The translations under genes and the position numbers were made by a program. Below, piece after piece: positions 3 to 39,063 of a DNA stretch of 39,063 nt; the first letter of the stretch is position 1; every line of letters starts with the position of its first letter. The stretch is from Chthoniobacter flavus (GTDB taxonomy: Bacteria > Verrucomicrobiota > Verrucomicrobiia > Chthoniobacterales > Terrimicrobiaceae), in the NCBI GenBank assembly GCA_020718585.1, contig DYRS01000004.1, positions 1 to 39,063 of the forward strand. Reading direction: 5' to 3'. The notes beneath the pieces were generated by a model that saw nothing but the letters and a program-made list of their open reading frames with translations, did no database searches and had not been told where the DNA came from.

Positions 3-506
3 TCATTGTGGGGAAGCCGTGTCGGCCTGAGCCTGCCAGAAATCGCAGGCCCAGCTGGTCTTGATAACGTCAGCGCTTTTTGCCCACCGGCGGAGATCCC
101 AGAGGAGCCGATTGTAATCAATGGCGATTCCCTCGCGCCCGAAGCGGATGAAAAGCCGGTGGAGCCCGTCCCCCAGCTCTTCCAGCTCGTTGCCATTCGC
201 AGCAAGCAGCCTCCGGAAATGTCGTTCCATGGACTCGAACGCATCACCGTCCCCGAGGCACAGAGCCGCGCAGCCAAGGGAATTGCCGCCGGGCTGGTGG
301 TTCGGGTTCTCGGCATAAAGCGCGGCGGTGAGGGCATCGGGCAGCTTGTGCTCGCCCAGCGCCCCGAGCCGCCCGAGGACTGGAAACGCGTAGTGCCGGG
401 TGGCATTGCTCCAATACCGCCGGAGCTCGGCGCGGTGCCCTCGATCCTTACACACTCGGGCGAGTTGCTCAATGAACGGCTCGTTGGTGGGACTTTCTGT
501 TTTCAT
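3..506 (-). CDS. casB: CRISPR-associated protein Cse2/CasB (type I-E Cascade small subunit)
   Basis: Internal Met MKTESPTNEPFIEQLARVCKDRGHRAELRRYW in ORF 3..635; ATGA overlap with the cse1 stop at 503-506; Cse2-like N-terminus and position after cse1. Stop at 3-5 overlaps an ATG at 4-6 of the next gene. Confidence 0.85.
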   Translation of the reverse strand: MKTESPTNEPFIEQLARVCKDRGHRAELRRYWSNATRHYAFPVLGRLGALGEHKLPDALTAALYAENPNHQPGGNSLGCAALCLGDGDAFESMERHFRRLLAANGNELEELGDGLHRLFIRFGREGIAIDYNRLLWDLRRWAKSADVIKTSWACDFWQAQADTASPQ

Positions 507-1957
507 TTTTTCTTCTTGGGTTTTGGATTCAAAACTTTCAGCCCCGCAGCATACGCTTGGAGCTGGCGCGGAGTCTGCCGGGGGCAGACTGAGTTGTAGG
601 CGTCGCGCGCGGCCTGCCGCACGGCAAGCGTCCACGGGTCGGAGCCTTCGCCGAAGGACAGACCGCCCATCAATGCTGGTTTGCGGACGATTTCAAGCAG
701 CGTGCCGGACTGCTGGTCGAGGGCGTGCCAGAAGTGCATTTTGGCTTCATCTGTCGGCGGAAACTCATTTTTTAGTGACGAGCCATACTGTTTGACCGCG
801 CCGTAGAGCTGGTTCGATCGGCCCTCGGCAAACAGGACGCCTGCCTCGTAGCGGGCTCGTCCGGCTTCAGTGAACATCGAGCGAGGAAGGGGAAACGTGG
901 ATTCCATCGTGTCGAGAATTTTCGCTTTGAGATCTGTCACGAGTGCTCCAACCCAGACATGAAATTCTTCAAAACCCCTTTGAGACTGGATTTGAAGAGC
1001 CATCGGGGCTTTTGCCTCCTCGTTCTTTGTCTGGCGCAAGACAGTCATCAGGTGAAGATCCCGCCAGACAGAACGCCCCAGCCTTGCTGGAAGGAGGCGG
1101 CGCTCCGCCACCTCTTTTTTCGTAATAACAACAACCGTTGCTGACGGCTCTCTCGACTCCTCAAAACGCGGATATTCCAGCCCGCATTGCTGCAAGTAAA
1201 ACCCCGATCCATCAGCGACAAGCTTCAGATCGCGGTGTCGTGGGACCATCCGCCCAAGGTAGCTTTTTGTCGCAAGCAGGTGCTCGCTGCCGACCGCGGA
1301 TTTAAGTTCCCAGATTGGACGTCCTATCCCGTCGGGGTGAAAATACTCCCGGACCCAGTCCGCCGTGAGGCAATTCAAAAGGATTGTCTGCTTAAGTGTC
1401 TCGCCGATCAGCAGCGCGTGGACCATGTTGCCGTCAACGCATGGACCCTTGCCTTTGTATCCCGCTCCATAAAGTGGATAAAAACACTGAAAAGACAACA
1501 GCGCCAACGCCATGCGCGAGAGATGCAATCGTCGGTCCTCATCGCAGCCGTCGTGATCAAAAAGAGTGGGGTTGTTCCCTGTTGCCAAATGAGGAATGAG
1601 CTTGCTGGACTTCACGGGATCTCTACTGGAAGGCACCTCAACCTGCAAAAACCTCGGTCCATCGCCGAACAGGTTGAAGTGCGGGAATATATCCTCGCGG
1701 CAGAGGTAGGCCGGGACCCGGGTTTCGATATCATCCCCGAAGCCGTCCCAGTCGTCCGGCGTATCCGGTGCGCCAAGCTCGGCCTGGGTGATGCAGACGA
1801 GCAGGCGCATGAGGGAGATTCGTTCATGCGGCGCGCAATCGAGGTCAGCAATTTCAGCACTTTCGCGGAATGCGGCTTCGAGGCTGACGAGCACGTTGCG
1901 CCCATCGCGGTAGCGGACTGGAATCCAGGGATTTTCAACGAGGTGAAAGGTATTCAT
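503..1957 (-). CDS. casA: CRISPR-associated protein Cse1/CasA (type I-E large subunit)
   Basis: 484 aa; MNTFHLVENPWIPVRYRDG and PHERISLMRLLVCITQAELG are typical Cse1 motifs; follows cas3. Confidence 0.92.
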   Translation of the reverse strand: MNTFHLVENPWIPVRYRDGRNVLVSLEAAFRESAEIADLDCAPHERISLMRLLVCITQAELGAPDTPDDWDGFGDDIETRVPAYLCREDIFPHFNLFGDGPRFLQVEVPSSRDPVKSSKLIPHLATGNNPTLFDHDGCDEDRRLHLSRMALALLSFQCFYPLYGAGYKGKGPCVDGNMVHALLIGETLKQTILLNCLTADWVREYFHPDGIGRPIWELKSAVGSEHLLATKSYLGRMVPRHRDLKLVADGSGFYLQQCGLEYPRFEESREPSATVVVITKKEVAERRLLPARLGRSVWRDLHLMTVLRQTKNEEAKAPMALQIQSQRGFEEFHVWVGALVTDLKAKILDTMESTFPLPRSMFTEAGRARYEAGVLFAEGRSNQLYGAVKQYGSSLKNEFPPTDEAKMHFWHALDQQSGTLLEIVRKPALMGGLSFGEGSDPWTLAVRQAARDAYNSVCPRQTPRQLQAYAAGLKVLNPKPKKKK

Positions 1958-1965
1958 AAGAAAAA

Positions 1966-4578
1966 TTAGAACCAGGATTCCTCTTCGTCATGGAAAGTTG
2001 GGACGGCCGAGATGCGCTCATGCGAGAGCCCTCGCTCCTCGCGGTAGCTGAGCCGGTAGGCGGAGGTTTCCGGTGCATGGCATGGCAGGCAGTCTGCCGA
2101 ACCCGACGGGCAGACGGCGAGGATGGAATCTGGAAAATGCTGAAGCAGCCACGGCGGGTTGCCGGGAGAGCGGAGGGCATCCGCAATCAGGTATCTGGGG
2201 ACCCTGCAGGCATTCTGGTGGAGCTTGCGGGCCAGGTCGAAATCGAACCGTCCGGGAACGAACGCATGTGAGGTGCCATCCAGAAAGTGGAGAGAGATTC
2301 CATTTGCAGATTGGGTGGGCGAAGATTGCAGGAGGATCACAAACCCTGATGGCTTCGGCTTCCAGCGCGTCTGCATGCCCTCGACATCGTCCACCGCGCC
2401 GGTTCCAAAGACGGAGTTCATCCAAGCGGTGCCCCGCATTTCTTCCACCAGTTTCTCCAGTTCGATGCGCAGCGCATCCGCCCCAGTTGGCATCGAATCG
2501 GTGACGCGCGAAGATTCCTCCAGAAGTGGTCGGATGTCCATTGGCAGAGAGACTTGGGAGAGCGTTTGCCAGACCCTCTGCGCTTGGAAGAGGGCAAACG
2601 GCGGGTAAACGTAGGCGGATGCACCGAGAGACTTTTTGATCGAAGCGGCATCCACCGACCAATCCACTGACGGCTGAAGGATGATGCAGCGCGGATGCTC
2701 GAAGCCCGGCGGGCGCTGACGCTCGTGGCGATGCAGCCGGCCGATGCGCTGGAAAAGGAGATCCGTGGGGGCCAGATCCGTGATGAGAAGGTCGGCATCA
2801 ATGTCCACGGATTGCTCGACAACCTGCGTTCCCACCAGGATGCAACCCGACTTCGGGCGATGCTCCCCGCCCTTGCCAAGAAGCTGCATCCACCGGCTTT
2901 CGTTCAGGCCCCTGCGAAACTGCGGAAACCTGCTGTGGAGGAGTCCGAACTCGATCCCGAGATCCCGGCAGGAGGACTTGACTTGGTCGAAGCACTCCTG
3001 AGCCGCCGCGATGGTATTGCGAACCACGAGCACGCACGCGCCGGCTTCGGCTGCCGATGCGGCTTCGCGAATCCAAATCGCGCCTTCCCGATCACGGTTT
3101 TCGATGCGGATCGTTTTCTTCTGCCGAAGAGATTCGGGAACTGAAATCGACCGGGCCTTGGAACTGCCAACGGAAACTTTTGTGATGAGGGGATAAGAGT
3201 CAGAAACCTCTTCCTCTACCGCTCCGGCCGCTGCCACAAGCTGGGCCCGGCGTGCTTTGGTGAGCGTTGCCGAAAGAACGATCACCGTGCAGCCGACTTG
3301 GAGGAACCACTCGACCGCGCGGTCCACAAGCGCGGACGTGTAGGGGTCGTAGGAATGCACTTCATCCATCACAATCACCTTCCCACCGAGGGCAAAAAGC
3401 CGGAGCGCCGAGTGCTTGACGGGCAGGACAGCCATCAATGCCTGATCCAACGTGCCGACGCCGAACGGTGAGAGAAGAGCCTTGCGGGAGTCGGAATACC
3501 AGAGGTTGGCCAGCGCCGCTCCATCGTCTTCTCCATTCACAGCAGGCAGCACCGGAGTGATCCGGCGGCCGGAGAGTCCCGCATTGCCATGTGCCAGCGC
3601 CAGGACGGACGGCGACGCCAAAACATTCGCAAGGAAGGTCTCGACCCGCTGGTGGATGCGGTTGCTCGTGAGCTGGGTCGGCAATGCAAAGTAGAGCCCG
3701 AACTCGCCGCCCTCGGCCCATCTGCGGCAGGCAACCGCCAGCGCAGCCTCCGTCTTGCCCTCGCCCATCGGCGCTTCGACGATGTAGAGCCCCGGAGTTT
3801 CCGCAGCCTCAATCAGGGCCGATTGAAGCGGGCGCATCTCCATCAATTGTCCGGGACCTGACGAAAACATCCGGCCGAACGTCAAATCCGTAGAAACCTT
3901 GTGCCGCCGCCATCCGATATCGGCCAAAGCGGATCTCGCCTGTTCTCGGGCCGCTTCCAACGATATCCGGCAGTCCATCCCCTCCGCCGGAAACCATCCC
4001 GTGTTCGAGCCGATCCAGTCACAAAACACCATGAACCCAGTGAACCAATGAAGGCGGGCAGATTTCTCAACGAGGGCCAGTGGGAGGGGCCCAAACATAG
4101 CGCAGATTTCTTCGATGAGTTCTTCCTTGATCTGCTTGATCCAGTCGGCATCTCCTTCAAAAACCTTCTGCCCCCGTGCCGCCGTCGAGGAGTATTTTCC
4201 GTGGTGACCTCCGACAGCAATCAGCCATCCGGGTGGCTTCCCACAAAACTCCGGGCGGGCAGACAAATACCGCTGGCCGATTTTCGCGTGGTTGCCCTCG
4301 TAGATATCCGGGGAATCCAGACCCAAGCGGCCTTGCCACGATTCTCGCCACATCTGGCATTTCATCAGGAAGCCCGGGGAAATTTTCCCGATATCGTGAG
4401 CCGCGATCAAGGAAACGCCGCCGCCGGGCAAAAGAGCACGGAGCGAAGCGGGAAGCGTCGCGCCCGACTCCTCCGCCACGGCCCCGACGTTGAGGCAGTG
4501 GTCGCGTACGGACAGGCAGGGGCGGCCACTCTCGTCGGTCTTCGCCCAGCAGTCGTTTATGCGCAAAGCGTTGCTCAT
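1966..4578 (-). CDS. cas3: CRISPR-associated HD nuclease-helicase Cas3 (type I-E)
   Basis: HD motif AAHDIGKISPGF, Walker A-like APMGEGKTEAAL, DEVHSYDPYTSAL, QRIGRLHRH. ORF opens with TTG at 4602; ATG at 4578 (MSNALRINDCWAKTD) is the likely start. Confidence 0.93.
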   Translation of the reverse strand: MSNALRINDCWAKTDESGRPCLSVRDHCLNVGAVAEESGATLPASLRALLPGGGVSLIAAHDIGKISPGFLMKCQMWRESWQGRLGLDSPDIYEGNHAKIGQRYLSARPEFCGKPPGWLIAVGGHHGKYSSTAARGQKVFEGDADWIKQIKEELIEEICAMFGPLPLALVEKSARLHWFTGFMVFCDWIGSNTGWFPAEGMDCRISLEAAREQARSALADIGWRRHKVSTDLTFGRMFSSGPGQLMEMRPLQSALIEAAETPGLYIVEAPMGEGKTEAALAVACRRWAEGGEFGLYFALPTQLTSNRIHQRVETFLANVLASPSVLALAHGNAGLSGRRITPVLPAVNGEDDGAALANLWYSDSRKALLSPFGVGTLDQALMAVLPVKHSALRLFALGGKVIVMDEVHSYDPYTSALVDRAVEWFLQVGCTVIVLSATLTKARRAQLVAAAGAVEEEVSDSYPLITKVSVGSSKARSISVPESLRQKKTIRIENRDREGAIWIREAASAAEAGACVLVVRNTIAAAQECFDQVKSSCRDLGIEFGLLHSRFPQFRRGLNESRWMQLLGKGGEHRPKSGCILVGTQVVEQSVDIDADLLITDLAPTDLLFQRIGRLHRHERQRPPGFEHPRCIILQPSVDWSVDAASIKKSLGASAYVYPPFALFQAQRVWQTLSQVSLPMDIRPLLEESSRVTDSMPTGADALRIELEKLVEEMRGTAWMNSVFGTGAVDDVEGMQTRWKPKPSGFVILLQSSPTQSANGISLHFLDGTSHAFVPGRFDFDLARKLHQNACRVPRYLIADALRSPGNPPWLLQHFPDSILAVCPSGSADCLPCHAPETSAYRLSYREERGLSHERISAVPTFHDEEESWF

Positions 4579-4946
4579 ATTCCGGGAAAACGGCTGCGGC
4601 AATCGGCGGGTGACGGACGGTTCTGCGCGTAGAAATCCATGGCGGGCGTCGCGTCAGGATAGCCGGTCGGCTGCGCGGGGGAAGCGGAACCTGACGGGGA
4701 ATTTGCGAAGATCATGCCCGGGAGGATATGGGAGGGGGTAGGTCAACGAGCGTCCTACCCAAAGAAAAAAATCTGGCCCTTGAGTCAAGATCTGCAACTT
4801 GAGCCCAGTGCGCTCGCCAGGCGCATCCGCTTGCCGTTTCTATCGCCGGCTTCGGCTGTAGACCGATTTCATCGGATGAAAATCAAGGCAGTTGGGCCGC
4901 AAAAGAACGCAAAGAGCGCCAAAAACAATCCCTGTCTGGAAAAACG

Positions 4947-29338: not shown

Positions 29339-30340
29339 CTAGCCCGTCATGCGCACGGGACCGAAGGGATCACATGATTTGCCGGTCAAAATTGCAGAGG
29401 CCGCCGCTCTTCCGAGGCGTTTGAAGTCGTATCGGAGTCGGGCATGGGGGGCTTGAAGGACGCCGGTGCCCTGGGTGCCAATCACCGGGGGACCGCTTTT
29501 CCCGAAGTGCTCTGCAAGGACATGGGCGACATTGTCCTCTGGGCAGACCACCAGCGAAAACTTGCCGATGTTTCGGGTCGCCACCACCTCCCGAAAATCC
29601 TGGACCTCCATGTCAAATTCCGAAAAGGCTTTCTTCAGCAGCCGGAGTGAGAGGTCGATGGCGGGGTCGCCGGAGAAGGGCACTGCCAGCAAAATTTTGC
29701 GGGCACCCAGCGAACGGGCGTAATCCGAGACCATCGCGGCCCCCTTCGCAGCATCCACTCGGACGCTGTGTGACCCCTTCCCACTTCCGCAGAGAAGCTG
29801 GACCCGTTGCCCTCCCGGCCAGCGGGCAGCTTCGATCACCCGCGGCATCCACAGGTGGTCCAGCACGAACCCGGCGCATCCCTTGGGAGCGGCCGTAAGA
29901 AGGGCTGAAAGCTCCCTGTTTTGCGTCCGCTGCGATGCGAACAGGGGAGCCTCATCGGCGGACGACTGCCAGACCAGCGAGCGCGCCGTGAGCGCGACGA
30001 GCGGGCTACCGTTGGCCACTGCGATTTCAGAGACGCCCTCCAGGATTTCCTGATACAGGCGGCTCCACCGCCAGACTTCCCGCCCTACGAAGCAAATGGG
30101 CGCGCCGCGGAGCTTCTTTCTTCGTGATCCCGCCGAGTAAAACCTCCCCGAGGGGCTCTGCCAGTAGATTGCCTCCTGAACAAGATCGCGCAGGATCCGC
30201 AGCACTGTCGAGGGGTGGATGGCGAATGTTTCTCCCAGACGTGCGAGTGGAGGCAACGGGACGCCCTCGGAAAGGGATGAGGCCAATTTTTCCAAACCCG
30301 CCCGCGCCTCCCGCGCAAATTTTGTCGGCTTCCTCGGCAT
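29339..30340 (-). CDS. GntR-type wHTH fused to LacI-like ligand-binding domain, transcriptional regulator
   Basis: LPPLARLGETFAIHPSTVLRILRDLVQEAIYW wHTH; C-terminal periplasmic-binding-like domain with PPVIGTQGTG. Upstream TTG at 30376 in the ORF track is unlikely as start. Confidence 0.85.
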   Translation of the reverse strand: MPRKPTKFAREARAGLEKLASSLSEGVPLPPLARLGETFAIHPSTVLRILRDLVQEAIYWQSPSGRFYSAGSRRKKLRGAPICFVGREVWRWSRLYQEILEGVSEIAVANGSPLVALTARSLVWQSSADEAPLFASQRTQNRELSALLTAAPKGCAGFVLDHLWMPRVIEAARWPGGQRVQLLCGSGKGSHSVRVDAAKGAAMVSDYARSLGARKILLAVPFSGDPAIDLSLRLLKKAFSEFDMEVQDFREVVATRNIGKFSLVVCPEDNVAHVLAEHFGKSGPPVIGTQGTGVLQAPHARLRYDFKRLGRAAASAILTGKSCDPFGPVRMTG

Positions 30341-30366
30341 GGGGGACAGGAAGCCGCGGATCCAAT

Positions 30367-30397
30367 CTATTTGCAATAAAAAAGATGTTGCATATAG
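30367..30397. promoter_or_regulatory. inverted repeat CTATTTGCAA-N11-TTGCATATAG (putative operator)
   Basis: 10-nt arms with one mismatch in the divergent region between the regulator and the amino-sugar operon; right arm overlaps a TTGCAT -35. Confidence 0.6.
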
Positions 30398-30425: not shown

Positions 30426-31337
30426 ATGGGAACGACACTATTGGTATTGGCGGCCGGAATGGGTAGCCGTTACGGCGGGTTGAAGCAATTGGACCATGTG
30501 GGGCCTGGCGGCGAAACCCTTCTGGATTACTCGATTTTTGACGCGCTGCGTGCGGGATTCGGGAAGGTGGTTTTTGTGATTCGCAAGTCGATTGAGGCGG
30601 AGTTTCGGGAGGCGGTGATCTCGCGCTACGAAGGGGTTGTGGAGGTGGGCGTGGCCTTTCAGGAGCCATCGGATCTGCCGGAGGGATTTTCGGTGTCCGG
30701 GGACAGGGAGAAGCCGTGGGGGACTGGGCACGCGGTCTGGGCGGCGCGGAAAGAGGTCCGGGAGCCGTTTCTGGTGGTGAACGCCGACGATTTCTACGGG
30801 AGGGAAGCGTATGCGATCATGGGTGCCCATCTTCGCGGGGAGGGGAGCGGGATGGCGATGGTCGCCTACCAGCTTGAGAACACGCTATCAGAGAACGGGG
30901 AGGTTTCGCGCGGGGTGTGTCGGCTTGATGCCGGGGGGGGGCTGGAATCCGTGGAGGAACACACCCACATTGCGCGGTCGGAAGGCGGCGTCATTTGCGG
31001 CTGCGACGAGGGAGGCGCCGTGCGCGAACTCGGACCCGGGATGCTGGTATCGATGAATTTCTGGGGATTTCCGACGGATGTCTTCGCTGGGCTGGAGGAG
31101 AGGATGAGTGTTTTTCTTCGTGCCGGAGGGGAGCGGGACGCGAAGGCGGAATTCTATCTGCCGACGGCGATCAGCGATTTGGTGGGGGAGGGACGGAGCC
31201 GGGTTTCTGTGTATGCGAGCCGGGACAAATGGTTCGGTGTCACCTATCGTCCGGATCGGGAGCTGGTGGCAAGTGCGCTTGCGGAGAAGGTGGCCGGGGG
31301 CGAGTATCCGGCACCGGTCTGGGGGGGGGCGAAATGA
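30426..31337 (+). CDS. sugar-1-phosphate nucleotidyltransferase (NTP_transferase)
   Basis: MGTTLLVLAAGMGSRYGGLKQLDHVGPGGETLLDYSIFDA; VVNADDFYGREAY. Confidence 0.88.
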   Translation: MGTTLLVLAAGMGSRYGGLKQLDHVGPGGETLLDYSIFDALRAGFGKVVFVIRKSIEAEFREAVISRYEGVVEVGVAFQEPSDLPEGFSVSGDREKPWGTGHAVWAARKEVREPFLVVNADDFYGREAYAIMGAHLRGEGSGMAMVAYQLENTLSENGEVSRGVCRLDAGGGLESVEEHTHIARSEGGVICGCDEGGAVRELGPGMLVSMNFWGFPTDVFAGLEERMSVFLRAGGERDAKAEFYLPTAISDLVGEGRSRVSVYASRDKWFGVTYRPDRELVASALAEKVAGGEYPAPVWGGAK

Positions 31338-32440
31338 GCGCGAAGCCCCACATTGAAGAAGCCGTCAGTCTTTTCCGGATTCCCGGGGCGCATCTGGAGA
31401 GCCGCCCATACGGGAGCGGGCACATCAACGACACCTTCGTCGCCGCCTTCAGCCATGCGGGAACGCGGGTCCGCTACATTTTCCAGCGGGTCAATGAAAC
31501 GATCTTCCGGCAGCCTGAAGCCCTCATGGAGAACATCTCGCGGGTGACTTCCGCCGCCCGGAGCAGGTTGGAGGAGACGGGAGTCGTGGATCCGACGCGC
31601 AGGACATTGAGCCTTGTTCTCGCGCTGGACGGGAAACCCTTTGCCCGTGACGGGGAAGGCCGACTCTGGAGGTGCTATCTTTTCATCGAAGGCGCACGGA
31701 CCTACGACATCATCAAGAGTCCGCAGCAGGCCTATGCCGCGGCCCGGGCGTTCGGGAATTTTCAGGGGCTTGCGGCGGGTCTTGGCGGGCCCCGCCTGCA
31801 TGAGACCATCCCGAATTTCCACAACACCCCCGCGCGTTTCCTGCGTCTCAAGCAGGCGTTTGAAGCCGACGTGGCGGGGCGTGCCGGGGAGGTTCCGGTC
31901 GAGCGGGATTTCATCGCCGCGAGAGAGGGCGATACGGGAGTGTTGCTGGATTTGCTGGCGCGGGGAGAAATTCCCGAGCGCATCACGCACAACGACACGA
32001 AGCTCAACAACGTGATGATCGACGACGCGTCGGGTGAGGGGATTTGCGTGATCGATCTCGACACGGTGATGCCCGGTCTTGCGCTCTATGATTTTGGCGA
32101 TTTGGTGCGGACGGCGACCAGCCCGGCGGCGGAAGACGAGACCGATCTTTCGCTGGTGCGGATGCAGATGCCGATGTTTGAGGCGCTGGTGCGGGGGTAT
32201 TTGTCCTCGGCGGGAGGCTTTCTGAACGAGGCCGAGATTGCGCACCTGGCATTTTCCGGAAAAGTGATCGCGTTGGAGATTGGCATCCGTTTTTTGACCG
32301 ACTACCTCGAAGGGGATGTGTATTTCAAAACGAAGAGGCCCGGCCACAATCTGGACCGGTGCCGGACCCAGTTGGCCCTCGTGCGTAGCATCGAGGAGCA
32401 GATGGAAACCATGAACCAGGTTGTTGCCACCACCAAATGA
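31334..32440 (+). CDS. APH-family sugar kinase, NahK-like (N-acetylhexosamine 1-kinase candidate)
   Basis: GSGHINDTFVAAF, RITHNDTKLNNVMID, VIDLDTVMPGLALYDFGDLVRT; ATGA overlap with upstream gene. Confidence 0.82.
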   Translation: MSAKPHIEEAVSLFRIPGAHLESRPYGSGHINDTFVAAFSHAGTRVRYIFQRVNETIFRQPEALMENISRVTSAARSRLEETGVVDPTRRTLSLVLALDGKPFARDGEGRLWRCYLFIEGARTYDIIKSPQQAYAAARAFGNFQGLAAGLGGPRLHETIPNFHNTPARFLRLKQAFEADVAGRAGEVPVERDFIAAREGDTGVLLDLLARGEIPERITHNDTKLNNVMIDDASGEGICVIDLDTVMPGLALYDFGDLVRTATSPAAEDETDLSLVRMQMPMFEALVRGYLSSAGGFLNEAEIAHLAFSGKVIALEIGIRFLTDYLEGDVYFKTKRPGHNLDRCRTQLALVRSIEEQMETMNQVVATTK

Positions 32441-33363
32441 AAATTCTTGTCACAGGAGGATCGGGTTTTATCGGGAGTCACCTTGTCGAGCGCTATCAGG
32501 GCCGCGCGGAGGTCATCGTGCTTGACAACCTTCGCTCCGGCCGCAGGGGCAATCTCGACGGGCTGGAGTGCCGGTTCGTCGAGGGGAGTATTCTTGACGC
32601 CAAGCTCGTGAGGGAGCTTGCGGAGGGGGTTGACCAGATTTTCCACCTTGCCGCGATGGTGAGTGTTCCCGAATCGATGGAGGATCCGCTCGAGACGGTC
32701 TCGATCAACATCACGGGGCTGCTCAATGTCCTGGAGGCCGCGCGCGCGGCGCGGGTTGGACGTTTTGTGTTCGCCAGTTCGGCCGCAGTTTATGGGGAAA
32801 ACACCCCGCAGCCCGCAGTTGAGACCGCCGTGCCGGATCCGAGGAGCCCCTATGCGATCACCAAGCTGGACGGGGAATACTACTGCTCGCTCTTTGCGCG
32901 TGAGGGCTGGGTCTCGACTGCCTGCCTGCGGTTTTTCAACGTGTTCGGTCCGCGACAGGATCCCGCGAGTCCCTATGCGGCCGCCGTGCCGATTTTTGCG
33001 GCAAGGGCACTGGCTGGAAAGCCTCTCACGGTTTATGGGGACGGCGGGCAGACACGGGATTTTATTTCTGTGAAGGATATTGCCGGCGCACTGGATTTTA
33101 TCGCCGGAAGCGGGGAAACCGGGGTGTTCAATGCCGGTTACGGGAGCTCGATCACCGTGCTTGAGCTCGCGAACAGGATCCTTGCGCTGGCCGGTTCGGG
33201 GTCCGCGATCGAGCACGCGCCGGTCCGTGCGGGCGATATCCGCCACTCGACCTCGGATCCCGGGAAACTTTTTCGCTCCGGGTGGGTGCCGGAACACGGC
33301 CTGGAGGAGGCACTGGGTGAAACGGTGGCGGCGATGAGGGAGGCCGCCGGACGGGCAGGTTGA
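32437..33363 (+). CDS. NAD-dependent epimerase (UDP-glucose/UDP-GlcNAc 4-epimerase type)
   Basis: MKILVTGGSGFIGSHLVERY, FASSAAVYGENTPQP, SPYAITKLDGEYY. Confidence 0.9.
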   Translation: MKILVTGGSGFIGSHLVERYQGRAEVIVLDNLRSGRRGNLDGLECRFVEGSILDAKLVRELAEGVDQIFHLAAMVSVPESMEDPLETVSINITGLLNVLEAARAARVGRFVFASSAAVYGENTPQPAVETAVPDPRSPYAITKLDGEYYCSLFAREGWVSTACLRFFNVFGPRQDPASPYAAAVPIFAARALAGKPLTVYGDGGQTRDFISVKDIAGALDFIAGSGETGVFNAGYGSSITVLELANRILALAGSGSAIEHAPVRAGDIRHSTSDPGKLFRSGWVPEHGLEEALGETVAAMREAAGRAG

Positions 33364-34394
33364 ATCTCATGGAAAGCCTCCCCCGCGAATCTCCTCCATC
33401 CGCCCAAGCGGTTTGCAATGCCGGTCCCCGGCGGTCCGCGGAGAGAGTCAGCCTCTTCGACGTCCAGGTCAACGGATTCGCCGGAGTGGATTTTCAGAAT
33501 CCCAACCTTTCCTGCGAAGATCTGCTGTCCGCAGTCCGTGCGCTTGCGCGCCACAGCGTGCGGCGGTTTTTTTTGACGCTGATCACCGATGAAATCGGCG
33601 CGCTGGAAACCAAGTTTCGTCGCATTGAGGATTTTCGTTCCCGCGAGCCCGGGATCGGGGAGGCGATCTGCGGCTACCATTTAGAGGGCCCGTGGATTTC
33701 GCCCTTGCCGGGATTTCGCGGGGCGCACGATCTCGGGGCCGTTAAGGCACCCGTGCGCGGGGACTTCGATACATTGCAAAGGGCCGCGGGAAACAACATC
33801 CGCCTTGTGACACTGGCTCCGGAGCTTCCGGGCTGCGTGGAATTCCTCCGGGGCCTGACGTCCGCCGGGGTTGCCGTATCCATCGGGCACAGCGACGCCT
33901 CCGAGGAGGACATCGGAGCGGCGATCGATGCCGGAGCAAAGTTCTGCACGCACCTCGGGAATGGGGTTCCGGAAATGTTGCCGCGCCATGCGAACGTGGT
34001 GCAGAGGCTTTTGGCGCGAGACGAGCTCACGGCATTTTTCATCCCCGACGGGATCCATCTTCCCCCGTCAACGCTCAGGAATTTTTTCCGGGCGAAGCCG
34101 GACGGGAAGGCGGTATTCACGACGGATTGCATGTCTGCGGCTGGGGCCCCCTGCGGGTGCCACCGACTCGGGAAGATCGAGGTCGAGGTGGGCGGGGACC
34201 GCGTAGTCCGATTGCCCGGCAGCCAACAATTTGCAGGGTCCGCACTTGAGCCGGAGCGCGCCGTCGAAAATGCGAGCCGGTGGATCGGGCTCCCGAAGGC
34301 CCGCGCCCGCGAGCTTTTTTCTTCCGTCGTGGCCTCACATTTTGGAATCGACCTCCCGTTTTGCCCTGCCTGTCATGAACATGAAACCACCTGA
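33360..34394 (+). CDS. nagA: N-acetylglucosamine-6-phosphate deacetylase-like amidohydrolase
   Basis: DVQVNGFAGVDFQNP, YHLEGPWISPLPGFRGAHD, SIGHSDASEEDI, DGIHLPP. Confidence 0.87.
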   Translation: MNLMESLPRESPPSAQAVCNAGPRRSAERVSLFDVQVNGFAGVDFQNPNLSCEDLLSAVRALARHSVRRFFLTLITDEIGALETKFRRIEDFRSREPGIGEAICGYHLEGPWISPLPGFRGAHDLGAVKAPVRGDFDTLQRAAGNNIRLVTLAPELPGCVEFLRGLTSAGVAVSIGHSDASEEDIGAAIDAGAKFCTHLGNGVPEMLPRHANVVQRLLARDELTAFFIPDGIHLPPSTLRNFFRAKPDGKAVFTTDCMSAAGAPCGCHRLGKIEVEVGGDRVVRLPGSQQFAGSALEPERAVENASRWIGLPKARARELFSSVVASHFGIDLPFCPACHEHETT

Positions 34395-35169
34395 CCTTCT
34401 TTCCTCCTCCCGTTTTTCCATTGAAATCCACGCCACCCGCGGGAGTGCCGGAGCCTCTGCGGCGGCGAGGGCGGCGGAGATCCTCCGCTGCGCACTGCGG
34501 GAACGTGGGGAAGCGCGGGCGATTGTGGCCAGCGCCCCTTCACAGGACGAGTTGCTTGCCGGCCTGGCATCGGCTCCGGATATCGACTGGGGGAAAATCA
34601 CCATTTTTCACATGGACGAATACGAGGGGCTGCCGGAGTCGCATCCGGCGACTTTCCGGGCGTATCAGAGGCGGAATTTTCTCTCGAAGATCACCCCGCG
34701 TGTCTTTCATGGCATCTGCGGGGAGTCGCCGGATCTGGAGGCCGAGTGCGCGCGGTATGCGGCCCTGCTTGCGGAGGCTCCCATCGACCTCCTTTGCATG
34801 GGGATCGGCGAGAATGGGCACATAGCATTCAATGATCCGCCCGTGGCGGATTTCTGCGATCCCTTGGACGCCAGGGTGGTTGAGTTGGATGAGGCCTGCC
34901 GTCGGCAGCAGGTCAATGACGGGTGTTTTCCAGACATGGAGTCCGTGCCGGCGCGGGCGGTCACCCTCACCTGCCCCGCGCTCATGAGGGCGGCTCACGC
35001 GGTCTGCATCGTGCCGGGTCCCCGCAAGGCAAAAGCCGTGCGCGACGCGCTGCTGGGACCGGTTTCCGAGGCATGCCCCGCCTCGATTTTGCGGGCGCAC
35101 CCGGACGCATATGTCTATTTGGATACGGGCTCCGCATCCGGGCTCGGCAACCTCCTGCGATCATGTTGA
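34375..35169 (+). CDS. nagB: glucosamine-6-phosphate deaminase-like protein (NagB family)
   Basis: ITIFHMDEYEGLPESHPATFRAYQRRNF, LLCMGIGENGHIAFNDPP. Start 34375 or 34381. Confidence 0.88.
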   Translation: MNMKPPDLLSSSRFSIEIHATRGSAGASAAARAAEILRCALRERGEARAIVASAPSQDELLAGLASAPDIDWGKITIFHMDEYEGLPESHPATFRAYQRRNFLSKITPRVFHGICGESPDLEAECARYAALLAEAPIDLLCMGIGENGHIAFNDPPVADFCDPLDARVVELDEACRRQQVNDGCFPDMESVPARAVTLTCPALMRAAHAVCIVPGPRKAKAVRDALLGPVSEACPASILRAHPDAYVYLDTGSASGLGNLLRSC

Positions 35170-37133
35170 ACAAGCCCCCCACCTCTCCCGCTCTCCCCCC
35201 GGTTCTCCTCTGCGCAATGGCCGTCGCCATTTGCGCGTTTGCGGTTTCCTGTCAGCGCAAACCCGCACCCGAGCGTCCGACACCAGAGGTGCAGACGCCC
35301 ACCACGGCTTCGCAGCCGCCTGCCGGGGTGCCAGGGAAGCCACCAACCCCGGAGCGGGTGGCGGAGATCGCAAAGATGCTCAACGGCAAAGCGGTTGGGC
35401 TGTGCTCACCGATCGGAGAGCGTGCGGCATGGACGGGGATCCCTGGAGGGACGGATATTGTTTCGTATGCGGCGCAATCCGCATCGGCACCGGCACCGGA
35501 GACGACGGACGATCTGTATTTGGCCTTCAAAAATACGGGAGACCGGCGCGGGTTTGAGGATGTTGCCTCGCGGAGACGCATGCGCCTGACGCAGTTTGTT
35601 CTTGGGGAGTGCATCGAAGACAAGGGCCGGTTTCTTGCGCCTGCGGAGAAGGAAATTGCGGCAATTTTGGACGAGCGGGCCTGGACGCTTCCCGCCCACG
35701 ACCGCGATCTGAAGAGCTTCAACGGGCAGCCGATTGTGGATCTGGCCGCGTCCCAGCGGGGGTGGATCCTTGCTTCGTCCGATTACCTTTTGGGCGACAA
35801 ACTGCGGCCCGAAACGCGCGCGCGCATCCGGGCGGAGGTCGCCCGGAGGGTCCTCCTGCCTTACAAGGAAGCGGTGATGGGAACCTCCCTCCAGGGCGCT
35901 CCCTGGATCAAAGACAAAGCGAAAACGAACTGGAATGCGGTGTGCCATGCCGGGATTGTCGGAGCCGCCCTGGCACTCGGAGGCGAGCCAGCGGATCTTG
36001 CTTGGTATGTTTCGGCCGCGGAGAATTTTCTCCCGTATTATTTCGACGGGTTCGGAAAGGATGGGTATTGCCCGGAAGGCCTTGGTTACTGGAACTACGG
36101 GTTCGGGCATTTTGTCATGCTGGCGGAGACGGTCGGACGCGCCACCGGCTGGCAAATCGACTTTTACCTTCTGGACAAAGTGGAGGCGATTCTGGCGTAT
36201 CCCAACCGGATCGCCCTCTTTCCGGGTGTGTATCCCGCCTTTTCGGATATGGATCCCACGGTGCAACCCGAGCCGTGGATCCCAGCCCTCGTGCGTTCGC
36301 GCTCCGACCAGAAGGGATCTCCGTGTCGGCTCACAAAAAAAATGCCGCTTTTCGAGGCCCTCGCGGCGGCGACGGCAAGATGCGACGGGAAGGCAGCTCC
36401 CCCGCTTGCTCTGCGCGACGAGTTTCCCGATGCGGGCGTTTATGTTCTTCGCAGTGAAGGTGCCTCTTCGGGGAAGGGACTCGCGATGGCCTTCATGGTC
36501 GGCGACAACGGAGAGCCGCACAACCACGACGACATCGGCTCCTATGCGGTCGCGCGCGATGGACGCATTGTTTTGGCGGATCCCGGAGCGGAAGTTTATA
36601 CTGCGAGAACCTTCGGTCCGCGCCGCTATGAAAGCCGGGTCCTCAGTTCCTTCGGCCACCCGGTGCCGGCGCCTGATGGTGCTTTGCAGGACACCGGCGC
36701 ACAGGCCCGTGGCTCGATCACCGATGCCAAGCTTTCGCCGCAGGCGGATTCCTTCCTCATCGATCTCGGGCAGGCTTACGTGAAATCGGCTCCCGGTCTG
36801 GAGGCACTCACGCGTCGGATCGAGTTCCTCCGTGCGCCGGAGCCGGAGATCCGCATCACCGACACGGCGGATTTCCGGGGACGCGGATTTTTGGAAACCG
36901 CGCTTGTGACATTCGGTTCGTGCGCCGAAAAGGACCCCGGGGAATTGACGGTGGCCAGCGAAGGAGCCGGGCTCCTCGTCAAAGTTTCGTCCAACCGCGG
37001 GCCCGTCGCGTGTTCCCAGAACGTGATCGATGAGAAATTGCCGGGAGGAAAGAAACCTTTGCGGATCGGCCTCAGGGCAGAGCCCGGGGAGGGCGGGTCC
37101 TGGATTTCATATTCACTCAGCCCTTCTCCATGA
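35163..37133 (+). CDS. heparinase II/III-like lipoprotein (putative polysaccharide lyase)
   Basis: Lipoprotein signal FAVSCQRKP; alpha/alpha toroid-like region NAVCHAGIVGAALALGG; GEPHNHDDIGSYAVARDGRIVLADPGAEVY. Confidence 0.72.
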   Translation: MLNKPPTSPALPPVLLCAMAVAICAFAVSCQRKPAPERPTPEVQTPTTASQPPAGVPGKPPTPERVAEIAKMLNGKAVGLCSPIGERAAWTGIPGGTDIVSYAAQSASAPAPETTDDLYLAFKNTGDRRGFEDVASRRRMRLTQFVLGECIEDKGRFLAPAEKEIAAILDERAWTLPAHDRDLKSFNGQPIVDLAASQRGWILASSDYLLGDKLRPETRARIRAEVARRVLLPYKEAVMGTSLQGAPWIKDKAKTNWNAVCHAGIVGAALALGGEPADLAWYVSAAENFLPYYFDGFGKDGYCPEGLGYWNYGFGHFVMLAETVGRATGWQIDFYLLDKVEAILAYPNRIALFPGVYPAFSDMDPTVQPEPWIPALVRSRSDQKGSPCRLTKKMPLFEALAAATARCDGKAAPPLALRDEFPDAGVYVLRSEGASSGKGLAMAFMVGDNGEPHNHDDIGSYAVARDGRIVLADPGAEVYTARTFGPRRYESRVLSSFGHPVPAPDGALQDTGAQARGSITDAKLSPQADSFLIDLGQAYVKSAPGLEALTRRIEFLRAPEPEIRITDTADFRGRGFLETALVTFGSCAEKDPGELTVASEGAGLLVKVSSNRGPVACSQNVIDEKLPGGKKPLRIGLRAEPGEGGSWISYSLSPSP

Positions 37134-38491
37134 ACGGTGGAACCGGAGACCCCGTCCCGCGGAAGTGGATTGCGGGGACACTGACCTACGGAGCGACCGG
37201 ACTCGCCGTGCTTTTTTTCTGGCTCCTCTGGGGGGACTTCGCATGGAACATGAAGGAACGCTCGGTGATTCCCGTCGCCCAGTTGATGCTCAAGCGCTTC
37301 GGCGCGGCCGACTTCATCGTCGGGCTTTTGATTGGCTCTCTGCCGGCGGCGCTTGGGATGTTGCTGGTTCCGGTGGTGAGTGTGAAGTCCGACCGTCACC
37401 GCGGGCGGTGGGGGCGTCGCATCCCGTTTTTGTTGTATCCGGTTCCCTTCGCTCTGGTGGCTCTCACCGGCTTGGCGCAGGCGCCGGTCCTGTCGGATTG
37501 GATTCAGGCGCGGCTTGGGGAGAGCGCCGACCCGTATGTGGTGCGGATTTTGGTGTTCTCGATCTTTTGGACCCTGTTTGAGATTGCGAGCGTGGTGTCG
37601 AATGCGGTCTTCGGGGGATTGATCAACGACGTGGTGCCGCATGAAGTGATCGGGCGGTTTTTCGGGTTGTTCCGGGCGGTGAGTTTGGTGGCGGGAATTA
37701 TTTTCAATTACCTCATCATGGGCCATGCCGAGGAGCAATACGGGTGGATTTTCCTCGGAGTCGGCCTCCTCTACGGGGTCGGCTTTCCCCTGATGTGCCT
37801 GAACATCAAGGAGGGGAAGTATCCTCCCCCGGCACCCGCGTCGGATCGGGTGGGCGCGGGCATGGTCACTTATGTGCGCGAATGCTACGGACAGCCCTAC
37901 TACATGCTGCTCTTCGTGGGGATGACCCTTGCGGCGGTCTCCTTCGGGCCGGTCAACGCATTCAGTGTTTTCTACGCAAAAAGCGTAGGCATGAGCATGG
38001 ACTCTTACGGGAAATACCTTTCGCTCACCTACGCCATCTCGCTCGTGCTGAGTTATTTTCTCGGAGTTCTCGCCGACCGGTTCCATCCGCTCCGCACGTC
38101 GATTGTGGCGGCGGTTCTTTACGCCGGGGCCATGTTCTGGGGTGGTTTTGCGGCGGACACCCCAGCGGCGTTTGCTGTCTTCTTTGTCCTGCACGGCGTG
38201 CTCGCCGGGGTTTATGCGACCGTCTCGGCCTCGCTCGGGCAGCGCCTTTTCCCACGGGCAAAATTCGCGCAGTTCGCCTCGGCGGGAGGCATCCTGACGG
38301 CAGTCGCTTTTTTTGTGACGCCCGCGCTTGTCGGGGGGATCCTCGATGCCAGCGGACACGCTTACCGCATCACGTTCTGGGCGGCCGGGATTTTGGCCGC
38401 CGGCGCGGTTTTTGTTTTGCTGTCCGTCGAGGCCCGATTCCGCAAGCTGGGTGGACTGACGGGATATTGCCCGCCGGAAAGCGGAGGGTAG
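37130..38491 (+). CDS. MFS sugar transporter (SLC45/GPH-like)
   Basis: Multi-TM protein; SDRHRGRWGRRIPFLLYPVPFALVAL; NDVVPHEVIGRFFGLFRAVSLVAGI. Confidence 0.88.
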   Translation: MNGGTGDPVPRKWIAGTLTYGATGLAVLFFWLLWGDFAWNMKERSVIPVAQLMLKRFGAADFIVGLLIGSLPAALGMLLVPVVSVKSDRHRGRWGRRIPFLLYPVPFALVALTGLAQAPVLSDWIQARLGESADPYVVRILVFSIFWTLFEIASVVSNAVFGGLINDVVPHEVIGRFFGLFRAVSLVAGIIFNYLIMGHAEEQYGWIFLGVGLLYGVGFPLMCLNIKEGKYPPPAPASDRVGAGMVTYVRECYGQPYYMLLFVGMTLAAVSFGPVNAFSVFYAKSVGMSMDSYGKYLSLTYAISLVLSYFLGVLADRFHPLRTSIVAAVLYAGAMFWGGFAADTPAAFAVFFVLHGVLAGVYATVSASLGQRLFPRAKFAQFASAGGILTAVAFFVTPALVGGILDASGHAYRITFWAAGILAAGAVFVLLSVEARFRKLGGLTGYCPPESGG

Positions 38492-38497
38492 GCCGGG

Positions 38498-39063
38498 TCA
38501 GCGCCAGGGGTTTCGGTATTTGACCCCGGCGAGGTCAAGGCGGACGAGGTGCGGACGCAGCCGTTCAAGAAAGCCGGAGTAATCGCGCCGGGAGGGAGCC
38601 GACCATGCCACCTCGGCCAGCGCACAGGCGCGGGGGAAGGTCATGTATTCCACAAGCGCGGGCGTGGGAAGGTACTCGGTCCAAATTTGTCCCTGAACCC
38701 CAAGGATGCGGGCGACTTCCACGGCGGTGAGCGCGGGGGCAATCGGCTCGAATGCGTAAACGGTTTCCAATGGGAGGTGCCCATGGATGGCAAGCGGCTC
38801 GGCCGATGAATCGGCGCTCTGGTAGAAATCCAGGTAGGTGAATTCCTTGGGAGCCATGACGACATCGAACCCTGCCTTGGCTGCGGCAATTCCCATTTCG
38901 GCACTCCGCCAGGACATCACGACCGAACCTTCGACGAACCCGCCTTCGAGGTTCTCATCCCAACCCAGCGTCCGCCTCCCGCGTTCACGGAGAAAGTCCG
39001 CCATTCGTGCCATGAACCAACCCTGGAGAGCTTCGGTTCCGGAAAGTCCGTGCGCGGCGATTT
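38498..39063 (-). CDS. beta-N-acetylhexosaminidase GH20 (partial, 5' end beyond window)
   Basis: Frame stays open to the window edge (IAAHGLSGTEALQGWFMARMADFLRERGRRTLGWDENLEGG); GWDE, VMSWRS, LGVQGQIWTEY typical of GH20. Confidence 0.9.
   Translation of the reverse strand, partial: IAAHGLSGTEALQGWFMARMADFLRERGRRTLGWDENLEGGFVEGSVVMSWRSAEMGIAAAKAGFDVVMAPKEFTYLDFYQSADSSAEPLAIHGHLPLETVYAFEPIAPALTAVEVARILGVQGQIWTEYLPTPALVEYMTFPRACALAEVAWSAPSRRDYSGFLERLRPHLVRLDLAGVKYRNPWR

Follow-up and report, generated by a model that had tools for sequence, protein, structure and literature searches.

The operon analysed here lies in a 39,063-nucleotide stretch of Chthoniobacter flavus DNA (contig DYRS01000004.1, or C275 in our numbering; hereafter the window), which is an entire contig of a 2.58-Mb metagenome-assembled genome that is 96% complete. 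Among the closest described systems, the bifidobacterial pathway for galacto-N-biose and lacto-N-biose (GNB/LNB) runs through GH112, the N-acetylhexosamine (HexNAc) 1-kinase NahK, GalT and GalE (PMC6668579), and BT4240 of Bacteroides is an N-acetylgalactosamine (GalNAc) 1-kinase without which growth on GalNAc fails and growth on chondroitin sulphate is not complete (PMC11992087). In AmgK-MurU salvage of peptidoglycan sugars, too, an anomeric sugar kinase acts before a uridylyltransferase (PMC5371407). The window carries seven genes that probably constitute a regulated operon for the use of GalNAc, and of N-acetylglucosamine (GlcNAc), via UDP-sugars, in which the nucleotidyltransferase (NTase) would be a duplicate of the housekeeping GlcNAc-1-P uridylyltransferase of the phylum.

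Organization of the operon

A preliminary description of this DNA had reported a seven-gene operon running in one direction and facing a GH20 gene. This holds: the seven genes (30426-38491, + strand) are all intact open frames, and every junction overlaps, by 4, 4, 4, ca. 20, 7 and 4 bases in order. The family assignments, which were checked against Pfam, NCBIfam and PDB sequences, are as follows.

30426-31337, + strand: sugar-1-phosphate NTase (P0001), predicted UTP:HexNAc-1-P uridylyltransferase (3pnn, E 1e-90)
31334-32440, + strand: NahK-type N-acetylhexosamine 1-kinase (4ocu, E 1.6e-78, residues 10-365)
32437-33363, + strand: putative UDP-HexNAc 4-epimerase, extended SDR (6wjb, E 3.3e-65; WbgU and WbpP among the next matches)
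33360-34394, + strand: NagA-like deacetylase with a short N-terminus (TIGR00221, 159.5 bits; motifs kept)
34375-35169, + strand: NagB-like glucosamine-6-P deaminase/isomerase (GENGHIAFNDPP; profile matches and alignment)
35163-37133, + strand: PL33-like heparinase II/III-fold lyase, a lipoprotein with lipobox AVSC (PL33 structures, E 4.9e-24)
37130-38491, + strand: MFS sugar transporter (PF07690/PF13347)
38498-39063, - strand: GH20 beta-N-acetylhexosaminidase, C-terminal part (PF00728, E 9e-38)

The NagA-like gene has a TTG start at 33360, and an alternative ATG at 33369 would leave a gap of +5 to the epimerase gene. The GH20 gene, whose stop codon is at 38498, is convergent with the transporter gene and its 5' part lies beyond the contig end.

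The nucleotidyltransferase

The gene adjoining the kinase gene encodes an NTP_transferase-fold protein and not a GalT-type hexose-1-phosphate uridylyltransferase, so that activation with NTP instead of by GalT, as earlier proposed, agrees with its sequence. The closest protein is 3PNN of Porphyromonas gingivalis, alike over the whole length with 50% identity in the structural alignment, and the AlphaFold model of the NTase (pLDDT 91) has a TM-score of 0.93 to 3pnn; no paper on the function of 3PNN was found in the open-licence literature. Beyond 3pnn, the predicted fold resembles those of UDP-glucose pyrophosphorylase, RmlA, GlmU and MurU to about the same degree and does not, therefore, fix the substrate. 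Structure was dropped as a guide to it, the nearest folds being a mixture of enzymes for UDP-glucose, dTDP-glucose, UDP-GlcNAc and UDP-N-acetylmuramic acid. The NCBIfam search rendered no equivalog match, no MurU match and no TIGR01173 (GlmU) match at E 1e-3, the best match being TIGR03992 with 22 bits.

Another member of the 3pnn family, 57% identical to the operon copy, is encoded by itself in the same genome (contig C57, L146:815-1708); this solitary copy adjoins an L,D-transpeptidase-like gene and is likely the housekeeping copy. In a tree of 62 NTases the window copy grouped with the copies that are linked to a kinase in relatives (100/98), and the solitary copy with another solitary one, which fits a housekeeping copy and a catabolic duplicate. 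A single clade for all kinase-linked NTases was rejected: nine changes are needed on the tree, implying that kinase linkage was gained or lost several times.

Phylum-wide pattern of the 3pnn family and GlmU

All phyletic counts refer to 241 Verrucomicrobiota genomes drawn evenly from the phylum. The 3pnn-family NTase is present in 228 of them, down to genomes of 0.9 Mb, and mostly in single copy, the genome of the window having two. Canonical GlmU (TIGR01173) was over the cut-off in none of the 241 genomes and in 9 of 14 control genomes, and TIGR03991 (alt_bact_glmU) was rejected as a GlmU substitute for 240 of them, since it was found only in G042, a genome without the 3pnn enzyme. A separate protein of 240 amino acids has its best match in the N-terminal half of archaeal-type GlmU (GlmU-N). 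At E < 1e-60 this half was detected in 9 of the 13 genomes that do not have the 3pnn enzyme (G187, G108, G031, G202, G042, G046, G078, G090 and G114, from four families) and in none of the 228 that have it; among the remaining four genomes there are two with a GlmU-like protein of 505 amino acids and two domains, and two that are 86-91% complete. This exclusivity has a Fisher probability of 1e-13 by genome and of 2e-5 by family, with tree dependence still contained in both values. Many of the 241 genomes keep a lone acetyltransferase matching the C-terminal half of GlmU, and GlmU appears to be split across the phylum. Stand-alone proteins of this acetyltransferase type are encoded at L175:2822-3610, L176:2658-3395 and L174:2586-3515, and some of them are extended by an additional region at the N-terminus. 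The open-licence literature searched rendered no mention of an absence of GlmU from Verrucomicrobia.

An argument by elimination comes from G030, a reduced genome of 0.916 Mb in one contig. It encodes GlmS, GlmM, MurA, MurC, MurE, MurG, MraY, LpxA, LpxB, LpxC, LpxD and the GlmU-C acetyltransferase, and it rendered no match to E. coli GlmU-N, no GalU and no UDPGP protein. Besides the 3pnn enzyme it has the nucleotidyltransferases GlgC, IspD and KdsB and a ManC-like one, so that no other unassigned candidate is left for producing the UDP-GlcNAc needed by MurA and LpxA. The exclusive pattern of GlmU-N together with this elimination points to the 3pnn enzyme as the probable GlcNAc-1-P uridylyltransferase of the phylum. 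In the history that we favour with fair confidence, the split GlmU of Verrucomicrobiota would have kept its acetyltransferase half separately and had its uridylyltransferase half replaced by the 3pnn family, a duplicate of which would have been recruited, with NahK and the epimerase, into GalNAc catabolism. Nearly all Gram-negative bacteria require UDP-GlcNAc for the wall and the lipopolysaccharide, and in the phylum to which Akkermansia belongs no name seems to have been given to the enzyme that completes its synthesis; the proposed phylum-wide role is the part of highest interest.

Conservation of gene order

A kinase-based scan of genome contigs rendered 80 related kinase loci, in which gene neighbours were placed by tblastn with reference proteins. 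The genes for NTase, kinase and epimerase (the triad) follow one another in the same order in 23 loci, which argues that the operon is not a chance arrangement; NTase and kinase genes are adjacent in 31 and kinase and epimerase genes in 39. Triads or pairs occur in Spartobacteria, Opitutae, Akkermansiaceae, Lentisphaeria and others, the triad order being kept across Verrucomicrobiota and Lentisphaerota. The tail of NagA, NagB, lyase and MFS genes was not found in the related kinase loci. The conserved unit is thus the first three genes and not all seven; in same-genus and related loci the tail is exchanged for ROK kinase, PIG-L deacetylase and NagB genes.

The proposed tie to amino-sugar catabolism is also supported, since a gene for NagB, a deacetylase or a ROK kinase lies at most 7.5 kb away in 13 triad loci. 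Locus L016, from a genome of the same genus (G001), comprises regulator, NTase, kinase, epimerase, ROK kinase, PIG-L deacetylase and NagB; the block of NagB, PIG-L deacetylase and large ROK kinase that directly follows the triad there is found in the genome of the window on contig C89 (L152:3498-6626). NagA and PIG-L are unrelated deacetylases, and that both occupy this position next to the triad speaks for a genuine link with HexNAc catabolism.

Other arrangements were seen as well. A Hymenobacter plasmid (L209) has genes for a LacI regulator, a 3pnn-family NTase and an APH-family kinase in a row, so that the NTase-kinase pair reaches Bacteroidota. Five loci of Kiritimatiellota-type genomes and relatives (L063, L066, L075, L077 and L082) carry tandem NahK-type kinase genes and then NagB, without NTase or epimerase; the product of the second kinase gene is ca. 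47% identical to the query. At L050, L059, L067, L068 and L085 the kinase gene, possibly for a different sugar, adjoins one for a uroporphyrinogen-decarboxylase-like protein, with a GFO/IDH oxidoreductase in four of the five; at L068 and L085 a relative of the PL33-like lyase of the window is next in line.

Family tests of the remaining enzymes

To judge from their sequences, the products of all seven genes look intact. The kinase is homologous over its whole length to the solved NahK (4ocu) and conserves the catalytic motif THNDTKLNN. The closest solved relative of the epimerase is 6wjb, which we take to be PelX, and the motifs SSAAVYG, YAITK, RFFNVFG and IRHS are kept; the protein is a candidate for group 3 of the UDP-HexNAc 4-epimerases (WbpP/PelX type). 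The function of PelX has been described (PMC9135694). Judged by their sequences, both proteins are consistent with the NahK-type kinase and the UDP-HexNAc-type epimerase that had been proposed.

The NagA-like protein is below the TIGR00221 cut-off of 225.65 bits, with profile positions 58-349 covered, and keeps the metal and catalytic motifs HLEGP, GHSDA, THLGN and TTDCMSAAG (active-site Glu, two His and Asp). The NagB-like protein is likewise below its cut-off (TIGR00502, 122.8 vs 236.9 bits); relative to Asp72, His143 and Glu148 of the E. coli enzyme, Asp and His are kept and Glu is conservatively changed to Asp.

The lyase had no Pfam match over the cut-off. Its N257, Y310 and HNHDD and EVYT motifs align with N238, Y291, H444 and Y470 of PL33, that is, with four of the four catalytic residues (PMC11848413). 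The PL33-like assignment of the proposed lyase is therefore maintained, but coupling of the lyase to the operon was rejected as a conserved feature (two of the 80 loci), and because that link is weakly conserved, a glycosaminoglycan is no more than a putative substrate.

Proposed route

From the observed genes, motifs, gene order and phyletic pattern we infer substrates, fluxes and a mutase step as follows. The PL33-like lyase in the outer envelope and the GH20 enzyme would free GalNAc or GlcNAc from a glycan that contains uronic acid, and the MFS transporter would import them. The kinase, by homology to NahK and BT4240, would convert HexNAc to HexNAc-1-P, from which the 3pnn-family NTase would form UDP-HexNAc and pyrophosphate with UTP, and the WbpP/PelX-type epimerase would convert UDP-GalNAc to UDP-GlcNAc. 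The latter could enter wall synthesis or be returned to GlcNAc-1-P by the reverse NTase reaction, from which GlmM or PGM, acting as the mutase, and then NagA and NagB would lead to fructose-6-P. The operon has no phosphomutase gene, as had been pointed out, but this gap is only local, since GlmM (590 bits) and a phosphoglucomutase (PGM) are encoded elsewhere in the genome. Bacterial GlmM normally works on glucosamine phosphates.

Alternative explanations

It could be that the triad serves anabolic salvage only, converting HexNAc from outside into UDP-GlcNAc and UDP-GalNAc for the wall or a surface polysaccharide, and that NagA and NagB act separately on GlcNAc-6-P from ROK kinases. A C1 kinase plus a uridylyltransferase is the logic of AmgK-MurU, UDP-GlcNAc is directly usable, and the genome has ROK kinases of its own, one of them NagK/fructokinase-like, which would give NagA and NagB another substrate source. 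We regard this as unlikely, since the operon includes lyase, transporter, NagA and NagB genes, faces GH20 and has no glycosyltransferase among its seven genes, and since the triad in relatives is paired with NagB, PIG-L and ROK, a catabolic set. A Leloir-like route for a non-amino sugar, with the NTase activating another sugar-1-phosphate (e.g., glucose-1-P or galactose-1-P) or using another nucleotide, would agree with its ambiguous predicted fold and the lack of an NCBIfam equivalog match, but the partner kinase is NahK and not GalK, the epimerase is nearest to 6wjb and WbgU/WbpP-type enzymes, and the exclusivity of GlmU-N and the elimination in G030 point to GlcNAc-1-P; we consider this route distinctly improbable.

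Several observations do weigh against UDP-sugar catabolism through a recruited GlcNAc-1-P uridylyltransferase. The triad also occurs without NagA or NagB and the kinase, at many loci, without NTase or epimerase; the NagB-like protein has Asp at a catalytic Glu position; NTase relatives exist in Bacillota (Ruminococcus albus), where GlmU is expected, and the 3pnn family may thus have other roles; and the phyletic counts are not independent, resting on four families. Moreover, the unrelated UDPGP family (PF01704), which includes eukaryotic-type UDP-GlcNAc pyrophosphorylases, is present in 208 of the 241 genomes, mostly with weak scores, which might indicate AGX-like members, and in these genomes UDP-GlcNAc need not come from the NTase alone. 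It is conceivable, then, that a UDPGP protein is the UDP-GlcNAc pyrophosphorylase of most Verrucomicrobiota and that the 3pnn enzyme does something else essential. This explanation, which we think has a low probability, cannot account for the 33 genomes in which UDPGP is absent, including G030, where MurA and LpxA are encoded, and G093, both with the 3pnn enzyme; besides, GlmU-N is exclusive with 3pnn and not with UDPGP, G042 and G114 carrying both GlmU-N and UDPGP.

Regulator and other features of the window

29339-30376, - strand: divergent regulator, with a GntR-like winged-helix N-terminus and a sugar-binding-protein-like C-terminus
30366-30397, no strand assigned: operator-like site TCTATTTGCAA, then TTGC ca. 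12 bases on, between regulator and operon

The regulator gene starts at TTG 30376 or ATG 30337, and the GntR-like N-terminus of its product has a weak profile match (PF00392, E 0.15). Related loci have a gene 47-58% identical to it that is likewise divergent from the kinase operon, and the regulator is kept in Chthoniobacterales. Eleven bases of the operator-like site are invariant across six loci, and the exact core was found in 15 of 210 loci, all 15 being kinase loci of the group of the window. In the window the site forms an inverted pair, CTATTTGCAATA / CTATATGCAACA, with two matches vs 0.06 expected. The TCTATTTGCAA site may act directly as the operator, to judge from this pattern.

At the left end of the window there are type I-E CRISPR genes on the - strand (503-4602), with Cas3 at 1966-4602 and Cse1 at 503-1957.

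Comparison with known systems

The lyase shares the fold and the four catalytic residues of PL33, of which it is a distant relative. GlmU (TIGR01173) and archaeal-type GlmU (TIGR03992) carry out the same GlcNAc-1-P uridylyltransferase step that is predicted for the 3pnn-family protein, which does not reach any GlmU cut-off and is encoded by itself, with another gene for the acetyltransferase half. With AmgK-MurU the operon has in common the succession of the two enzymes, whereas the sugar and the enzyme families differ. The BT4240 locus also combines a NahK-type GalNAc kinase with an MFS transporter in a locus for glycan use (mucin and chondroitin sulphate); no nucleotidyltransferase or epimerase is described for it and the route after GalNAc-1-P was left open (PMC11992087), a step for which the operon of the window suggests a fate.

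The bifidobacterial GNB/LNB pathway shares a NahK homologue, a UDP-HexNAc intermediate, a 4-epimerase and an amino-sugar-phosphate exit. It uses GalT where the operon has a pyrophosphorylase-type nucleotidyltransferase, and GalE where the operon has an epimerase closest to the 6wjb/WbpP type; GH112 was not found in the window, the rest of the genome not having been searched for it. The operon, which adds NagA, NagB, a lyase and an MFS transporter, is a variant of the HexNAc-1-P/UDP-HexNAc route with a pyrophosphorylase-type enzyme in place of GalT.

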